A stretch of DNA of 64,000 nt from Planctomicrobium piriforme (GTDB lineage: Bacteria > Planctomycetota > Planctomycetia > Planctomycetales > Planctomycetaceae), in NCBI GenBank assembly GCA_945860955.1, contig CAMATH010000023.1:1-64000 (forward strand). Reading direction: 5' to 3'. The notes beneath the pieces are model-generated. The model saw only the letters and a list, made by a program, of their open reading frames with translations. It searched no databases and was not told the DNA's origin. Shown here in pieces: positions 36,165-59,162 of the stretch (position 1 is the first letter of the stretch; each line of letters opens with the position of its first letter). Position numbers and translations under genes: made by a program.

Positions 36165-36332
36165 GCCACAGACACCATTGGACACTGGACCCATGCCTCA
36201 AAAATCCCAGGGGAGGTCTGGGGGGGACAGAGTCCCCTCCAGCTTCCGCCCAGTTGCTCGCCCCTGCAAACAGGCGCGAGGGACGAAAAGAAGGGGAACA
36301 GGATGAAGAGGATGAAAGGGATGAACAGGATG
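36165..36332 (+). repeat. Long direct repeat, copy 1
   Basis: This block starts GCCACAGACACCATTGGACA and ends with the GATGAAGAGGATGAAAGGG motif and GAACAGGATG. It matches 36522-36687 at roughly nine bases in ten. Inside it is an inverted pair, GGGGAGG and CCCCTCC. Confidence 0.8.
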
Positions 36333-58033: not shown

Positions 58034-58312
58034 TCAATTCGTCGCCGATTCATCGGTTGACGGCAACATTCGGACCGTGTCACACCGCGTACAGGACTCC
58101 GTCGCCGACGCCCCCTCGGGGAGGACGACTTCCCAGCGATGGACGCTCCCGTCGACGCTCATCTCCAGGATTCCCTCGCAGGGAGGGAGGGCGATCGGTT
58201 TCGCGAATCGAATTTCGTCGGTACAAATAGCACCGAGGCGGTACGAGATGGGACCGACATGGAGGTTGAGTTGAACCTCCGCCGAATGTGACGACTTGCC
58301 GATTCGAATCAT
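58034..58312 (-). CDS. Small beta-rich protein, divergent from the kinase-like gene
   Basis: The 92-residue protein starts at an ATG whose first base is 58312; it starts M-I-R-I-G-K-S-S and alternates hydrophobic and polar residues, with an L-x-V-D-G-S-V-H-R-W turn. It ends with a C-x2-C. The composition is that of a small beta protein rather than a shadow frame. Start codons of this gene and the plus-strand gene share the bases CATG. No family is recognised, though I recall similar proteins in planctomycetes. Confidence 0.55.
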   Translation of the reverse strand: MIRIGKSSHSAEVQLNLHVGPISYRLGAICTDEIRFAKPIALPPCEGILEMSVDGSVHRWEVVLPEGASATESCTRCDTVRMLPSTDESATN

Positions 58313-58817
58313 GAGCAACTGGAATGAAAATCTGACAGATCGGTTGGTGGAATATGCCGAACGGCACAACATTCAACTGGTCGACGAACTCGGTTATGGA
58401 TACGACGGCACGGTCGTTTCCACAACCCGCCAGACCGCGCTCAAAGCGCTCCGGTACCTAGGATTGTACCAAAACGAGCGGAATGTGTACCTGCGACTCC
58501 GCGATCTGGAGGTTTTTCAGGTTCGGCGATTCAATATTCCCAAACTCCGCGGCTACGACGACAATCTCTGGATCCTGGAAATGGACATCGTCTCGCCCCC
58601 GTTCGTTCTCGATTTCGCGGGTGCCTACCTCGATCACCAGCCCGACTACGGCGAAGAGGTCTACCGGGAGTGGGTCGAAGAAAAGCGGGAGCAGTTCGGC
58701 GAGAACTGGCCCGAAGTCCGCAAGGTGATGCGGGAACTCGCCGGGCATGGAATCTATCTGGCCGACGTGAAGCCGGGGAATATCGAATTTGGTCGCGACG
58801 ACATTGCCGCCCCGTAG
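58311..58817 (+). CDS. Minimal protein kinase-like protein
   Basis: The protein has 168 residues from the ATG at 58311. It has an N-terminal beta-rich part and then Y-L-A-D152-V-K154-P-G-N157, which matches the catalytic HRDxKxxN loop of protein kinases (Asp, Lys, Asn present, His/Arg absent), followed by an E-F-G that could stand in for DFG. An early V-S-T-T-R-Q-T-A-L-K-A-L stretch may supply the ATP-site Lys. It is far shorter than a normal kinase (250 or more), so it is either a minimal kinase or a pseudokinase. It is divergent from the small beta-rich protein gene. Confidence 0.55.
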   Translation: MSNWNENLTDRLVEYAERHNIQLVDELGYGYDGTVVSTTRQTALKALRYLGLYQNERNVYLRLRDLEVFQVRRFNIPKLRGYDDNLWILEMDIVSPPFVLDFAGAYLDHQPDYGEEVYREWVEEKREQFGENWPEVRKVMRELAGHGIYLADVKPGNIEFGRDDIAAP

Positions 58818-58890: not shown

Positions 58891-59060
58891 AATGTGGTTG
58901 TGCGGCGCTGAGAGTGCGTGCGACCGACGGAAAGAATTTGACAGGATGAAGAGGATGAAAGGGATGGACAGGATTGGGTTGCTCGCCATTCCTGCTCTGT
59001 GGATCAGTGGCTGAAATCGAAAAACTCCCAGTCCACACGATCGACTGTCGCCTCAGCAAT
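58891..59060 (+). repeat. Dispersed block, family B copy at 59 kb
   Basis: It matches 46278-46466 at most positions but lacks the ATGAATAGG expansion. The block ends in CAGCAAT, where the inverted motif begins. Confidence 0.8.
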
Positions 59061-59093
59061 CCTGTCCATCCTCTTCATCCCTTTCATCCTGTC
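58941..59093. repeat. Inverted pair of family B motifs
   Basis: ACAGGATGAAGAGGATGAAAG at 58941 and its near-complement at 59060-59093 (CCTGTCCATCCTCTTCATCC ...) are separated by about 85 bases. TAAAAAA follows the right arm. The two halves of the motif are in swapped order, so pairing is partial. It could act as a transcription barrier or a repeat-homing site. Confidence 0.55.
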
Positions 59094-59162
59094 TAAAAAA
59101 TCAACGGCCCGCCTGCAGGCTATACTCCGCGCGGTCCGCGTTGAAACACTTTGATAGCACCT

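Follow-up and report, generated by a model that had tools for sequence, protein, structure and literature searches.

How can two genes on opposite strands begin within the same four bases, and what would such an arrangement mean for the two proteins? The question is raised by one locus in the stretch of DNA analyzed here, which is 64,000 nt long and is termed the window below. At this locus, a small kinase-like protein (P0001) and a small beta-rich protein (P0002, termed beta below) are encoded divergently from a common CATG (Table 1). The original prediction for this DNA held that the plus-strand protein keeps D152-x-K154-x2-N157 of the kinase catalytic loop in only 168 residues, and that the two ATGs overlap by two bases. 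The motif is present in the translation, and the CATG is seen at 58310-58313, which gives the kinase ATG and the beta ATG two bases in common. To the left of the pair lie a 1395-residue ORF and a DUF1501 gene. Just 3′ of the kinase there is a 40-nt inverted repeat (58937-58976 and 59057-59096, 88% complementary, 80 nt apart) containing the word GACAGGATGAAGAGGATGAAAGG. With up to three mismatches, this word occurs in four copies in the window compared to 0 expected, with sites also at 36297, 36652, and 46327, and these copies perhaps form a REP-like repeat family.

Table 1. Positions of the gene pair and of the kinase motifs in the window.
Feature	Position	Strand	Basis or conservation
Minimal kinase-like protein P0001, 168 aa	58311..58817	+	ORF translation; PADLOC PDLC01137 ST_Kinase, E 9.7e-51
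Small beta-rich partner P0002 (beta), 92 aa	58034..58312	-	ORF translation and relatives
Shared CATG (plus ATG 58311-58313, minus ATG 58312-58310)	58310..58313	both strands	Kept in relatives
Glycine-rich loop G28-x-G30-x2-G33-x-V35	58392..58415	+	58, 59, 57, and 57 of 60
K45, beta-3 lysine equivalent	58443..58445	+	60/60
E56, helix-C glutamate equivalent	58476..58478	+	60/60
PPFVLDFAGA, proposed displaced DFG (D101-F102), right after the hinge	58596..58625	+	P97, D101, and F102 60/60
Catalytic loop D152-V-K-P-G-N157	58764..58781	+	D152 and N157 60/60; C-terminus of P0001 11 residues on

Taken alone, the CATG geometry of the window is ordinary and not beyond chance, as 17 of the 160 CATG sites in its 64,000 nt are open for at least 85 codons both ways. 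The shared CATG is significant because it is kept among relatives, and not on account of this single site. Furthermore, the tetramers AGGA, GGAG, and GAGG are absent from the 12 bases listed on each side of the window's CATG, so the evidence for ribosome binding rests on the relatives as well. The frequency of such sites and the missing Shine-Dalgarno (SD) tetramers are points in favor of a chance or gene-calling artefact, in which one frame would be no gene or the starts would lie elsewhere. This is very improbable, given that both proteins are conserved (in the first alignments, relatives are 18–57% identical to the copies in the window) with a start that is locked among relatives, and that beta is also found in tandem with the kinase.

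The relatives come from genome-by-genome kinase searches in the Planctomycetota. These provided 52 loci with kinase and opposite-strand beta matches, of which 49 head-to-head pairs, the window's included, have both N-termini and were scored, while three truncated loci were excluded. An exact in-frame shared CATG occurs in 41 of the 49, and these 41 pairs represent 38 groups differing by more than 30% over 120 bases. Most of the eight pairs that lack the exact CATG have starts that are adjacent or a few bases apart. Outside the 49 are six loci without an opposite-strand partner and one with a broken kinase (L026), which was dropped even though it has the CATG. L026 is the nearest named relative, a Planctomycetota MAG of a sister species that is 95% identical; it has a TAG within the kinase frame, and its beta is 99% identical to that of the window. 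Its placement agrees with the planctomycete origin assumed in the original prediction.

A later sample from another class comprised 27 rows representing 25 loci: 21 head-to-head pairs with both N-termini, two tandem pairs, one locus that lacks the 5′ end of the kinase gene, and one partnerless kinase fragment. The CATG is common to 20 of these 21 head-to-head pairs, the exception being L252. None of the 25 loci was used for the models, three members of their class are in the kinase alignment, and a comparison over 100 bases found no later locus that repeats one of the first set. The pair was thus found with its shared CATG in other planctomycetes (41/49 and 20/21), and a search for homologues with other starts, or with one frame unconserved, did not refute it.

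Several features of the relatives bear on the start sites themselves. The distance from motif to motif across the CATG varies from 100 to 145 nt, and the CATG stays. SD tetramers peak at −9 to −16 from the kinase start and at −8 to −13 from the beta start, inside the coding DNA of the partner in both cases, and the SD duplex energies beat those of shifted windows (p 1.5e-9 and 4.6e-4, uncorrected for relatedness). In six close pairs, which are partly non-independent, the first seven codons past either start show little synonymous change (8/60 compared to 248/753 further on, p 0.001). Both starts look right, since they are locked together despite varying N-termini and since the SD peak of each lies inside the other gene. 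The SD peaks also place each leader within the coding DNA of the other gene, as the original prediction had proposed. That prediction had left two alternatives, coupled expression or one wrong start; the second no longer fits, and coupled expression of kinase and beta now appears to be the better reading. A promoter-like site was not found in the window, and the relatives show no enrichment of −10 boxes close to the consensus. At one locus (L080, genome G105), the beta ATG lies at CATA, and none of ATG, GTG, and TTG occurs close to where the kinase frame begins; an ATA, possibly a rare start codon, stands where the shared CATG would be.

The beta gene can also lie upstream of the kinase gene on the same strand, as in L250 and L251 (beta profile E 1.8e-10 and 7.2e-16), where stop and start overlap by 4 bases (ATGA) and 1 base (TGATG), respectively. 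The occurrence of tandem and head-to-head forms means that the two genes stay together, and in contact, in either order. The interlock might nevertheless be a frozen historical accident that does not couple expression, persisting because a mutation in one of the overlapped starts harms the other gene. This explanation is compatible with any functional reading and fits the fact that no promoter or operator was found, but 8 of the 49 pairs are arranged otherwise, so that escape is possible, and the tandem form overlaps again, by 1 and 4 bases. We regard it as possible but somewhat unlikely.

Divergent gene overlaps have been reported to be strongly under-represented, which was attributed to the requirement for control elements upstream of genes (PMC2174442). 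In another survey, divergent cases make up 1% of overlaps, and all 75 divergent overlaps longer than 60 bp were ascribed to wrong starts (PMC2478687). A start-to-start divergent overlap conserved across a phylum is a clear counter-example to this scarcity, and the interlocked pair offers a test case for expression control without intergenic DNA. The pair is real, conserved, and unusual. In the literature searched (permuted kinases, start-overlapping divergent pairs, and the Rhodopirellula kinase), no paper on this pair was identified; the kinase family is already catalogued, and the partner, the interlock, and the possible permutation are not described there.

Among the features of a catalytic kinase, the minimal kinase contains the glycine-rich loop, the beta-3 lysine, the helix-C glutamate, and the catalytic aspartate and asparagine. 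K45, E56, D101, F102, D152, and N157 are invariant in sixty intact kinase sequences. Of the loop motif originally pointed out, D152 and N157 are kept in 60/60, but K154 in only 24/60. The description as a minimal kinase gains support from hhalign, which gives a probability of about 97% against ordinary kinases of the same genome. Intact kinases are mostly 157–176 residues long (one has 189), and the median pairwise identity among 43 of them is 39%. In these 43, the C-terminus lies 3–23 residues past N157, where an ordinary kinase would enter the strand leading to the DFG motif, and no DFG follows the catalytic loop.

The absent DFG and the early C-terminus are what would be expected of a pseudokinase that, together with beta, binds nucleotide or protein without catalysis. 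The invariance of K45, E56, D152, and N157 (60/60) makes this quite unlikely, as does the invariant D-F that follows the hinge. This D-F, which has the form PPFLIDFGKA in L011, is possibly a displaced DFG. Aligned with hhalign to a reference of 24 ordinary kinases from the same genome, the minimal-kinase family scores 78.1 with the full reference, 76.0 when the reference is cut after beta-7, and 84.7–92.8 when the DFG segment is moved to the hinge. When 235 and 240 segments were placed at the hinge, the DFG windows were among the best, and an unrelated segment starting PPFRGASALELL equaled them. Support for the permutation is suggestive only, because in the control scan this unrelated PPF segment does not fall behind the DFG segment. 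Covariation in the 43 kinases gave no trustworthy strand pairing, and the single-sequence structure models were unusable (pLDDT 39.9 and 43.2). Should D101 turn out to bind the metal, the protein would be a very small kinase of rewired topology.

General family databases say little about either protein. At thresholds up to E 1, Pfam and NCBIfam contain no match to P0001 or P0002. Fourteen kinase relatives have only scattered weak matches in these databases; the best in Pfam (E 0.0038) is to an unrelated viral family, with APH at 0.14 in one. The relatives of beta have no Pfam match below E 0.068, 17 beta members have no match in PADLOC, and beta has four strands in a low-confidence structure model.

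Within the taxonomic family to which the organism of the window belongs, 48 of 170 genomes have the kinase, with up to four matches per genome, and 58 of the same 170 have beta. Kinase matches occur in 14 of 392 genomes sampled phylum-wide; a different family gave 3 of 9 and a different class 25 of 397. The PADLOC kinase model matches 0 of 14 named control genomes. The presence of the kinase is sporadic, with many ruined copies. The ordinary protein kinase family is matched 102 times in the genome of the window (G000), meaning that the minimal kinase resides in a kinase-rich cell. With few query proteins, no kinase relative was confirmed in viral contigs or found in plasmids or phages, and planctomycete plasmids and phages are probably few. 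A PHROG labelled kinase has weak matches in 4 of 14 members (best E 1.8e-4), and no phage relative was recovered by tblastn. An origin from a virus or a plasmid was considered and is without support from the few kinase queries tried.

The two genes also differ in how they decay. Among 82 loci, both genes are intact in 45, beta is intact and the kinase broken or missing in 27, only the kinase is intact in one, and neither is intact in nine. The two genes of a type II toxin-antitoxin module are kept together, and here 45 of 46 intact kinases have an intact partner. Leaving out L161 and L168, where a contig end cuts the kinase side, gives 25 beta-only loci compared to one kinase-only locus (p 8e-7, or 4e-4 if the kinase is granted twice the hits for its length). 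At the sole kinase-only locus (L096), ATG and GTG are both absent ahead of the glycine-rich loop, and there is just a TTG. The kinases of L028, L084, and L109 were counted as broken on a single stop each, possibly a sequencing error, and in draft genomes misassembly may account for some kinase breaks. Elsewhere, as in L111, L112, L157, L174, and L175, kinases ruined by deletions and frameshifts face intact betas. This one-sided decay is what a toxin with a neutralizer would leave, and independent use of beta would leave it too; a function of its own could likewise explain the survival of beta. In one genome (G469; L161-L164 and L071), there are six beta matches and one kinase match, as if betas accumulate alone.

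A subset of the loci lies near CRISPR-Cas genes. All 14 kinases tested match the PADLOC model PDLC01137 ST_Kinase, in the case of P0001 over 155 residues (6-160 on profile positions 3-162 of 162, E 9.7e-51), and the text of this model describes a kinase with a putative adaptation-module operon beside I-C systems in Rhodopirellula. By coordinate comparison, ten of about 76 loci in the taxonomic family of the window share a contig with cas1 or csd1 at a distance of no more than 15 kb. Of these ten, seven have the kinase (G499:C771, G533:C82, G531:C37, G496:C538, G471:C1005, G523:C14, and G520:C82) and three have beta only (G536:C62, G531:C118, and G373:C1). As cas1 occurs in 65 of the 170 genomes, with at most three matches each, and the genomes measure several million bases, our rough estimate is that chance would give well under one such locus. 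The pair lies between cas3 and cas5c in L062, between a WYL gene and cas5c in L058, and just before cas3 in L057, while PADLOC places a Cas1g-type cas1 near L089 and Cas5g/Cas56g near L082. Part of the loci are thus close to I-C and I-G genes, with those in G499, G531, and G533 beside type I-C. The pair of the window, on contig C23, is not beside I-C genes, as cas1 of this genome is on C132 and C224 and csd1 on C224. No CRISPR array was detected when the wide loci and the window were scanned for exact repeats. WYL/HTH_11 regulator genes are the commonest neighbor family (4 of 124 neighbor ORFs), and one stands beside the pair in a cas locus.

These neighborhoods, in which pairs lie within or next to I-C genes or close to I-G genes, and the adaptation-module context given in the PADLOC text would suit a CRISPR-linked signaling or regulatory kinase that phosphorylates a Cas protein or a regulator, with beta as an adaptor or substrate and not an antitoxin. 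We consider this rather unlikely, since only ten of about 76 loci are near cas1 or csd1 and since the near absence of the kinase without beta is better explained by neutralization.

The best reading is that of a defence-linked module with interlocked starts. The pair would be a compact, toxin-antitoxin-like two-gene module in which the very small kinase is toxin-like and beta is its neutralizer, a proposal that we consider about equally likely to be right or wrong. Counted in its favor are the conserved CATG, the SD peaks, the one-sided decay, the tandem pairs, the proximity to cas genes, and the sporadic presence. The kinase would be the active and probably harmful part, binding ATP and modifying a host target, and beta would hold it in check. 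The conserved interlock points to a need for the two proteins to be produced together, and it may serve to couple their expression. Because there is no intergenic DNA, each promoter in the head-to-head form would have to lie within the coding region of the partner. In addition, the mRNAs of the pair would have complementary sequences across both starts and both ribosome-binding sites, and it would be difficult for either gene to be lost or to be separated from the other by recombination.

A divergent order is unusual for protein toxin-antitoxin pairs, and toxin-antitoxin modules are common on plasmids and phages, a property that is usual and not strictly defining. The toxin-antitoxin reading is weakened by the divergent order of the pair and by the lack of a confirmed viral, plasmid, or phage relative, as the kinase queries found no plasmid or phage occurrence. 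It is also weakened by the lack of a promoter-like site in the window and of −10 enrichment in the relatives, and its CRISPR aspect by the small share of loci near cas1 or csd1, to which the window's locus does not belong. A more specific proposal is a CRISPR-associated toxin-antitoxin family with a naturally permuted minimal-kinase toxin (DFG strand at the hinge, fold of about 165 residues), locked by one CATG, in which the complementary 5′ ends of the mRNAs would control the ratio of the two proteins. As a whole, this appears unlikely. The link to CRISPR-Cas makes a defence role directly testable.

The module can be compared to several known systems. Like the protein kinase fold (PF00069 and the wider superfamily), the minimal kinase has a glycine-rich loop, lysine, glutamate, HxD-like aspartate, and asparagine in order; unlike it, it has no DFG after the catalytic loop and lacks the rest of the C-lobe. 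In HipA/HipB, a kinase-like gene is likewise kept with a small partner gene. However, HipB is a DNA-binding protein encoded in an operon with HipA, whereas the partner here is beta-rich and usually divergent. The PADLOC ST_Kinase entry represents the same CRISPR-neighboring family as the minimal kinase, but it covers the kinase only, and its text mentions no partner, shared start, tandem form, or displaced D-F. Finally, CreTA is also a toxin-antitoxin module tied to CRISPR-Cas; as described (PMC9458426, PMC10097628), CreT and CreA are RNAs, whereas both parts of the present module are proteins.
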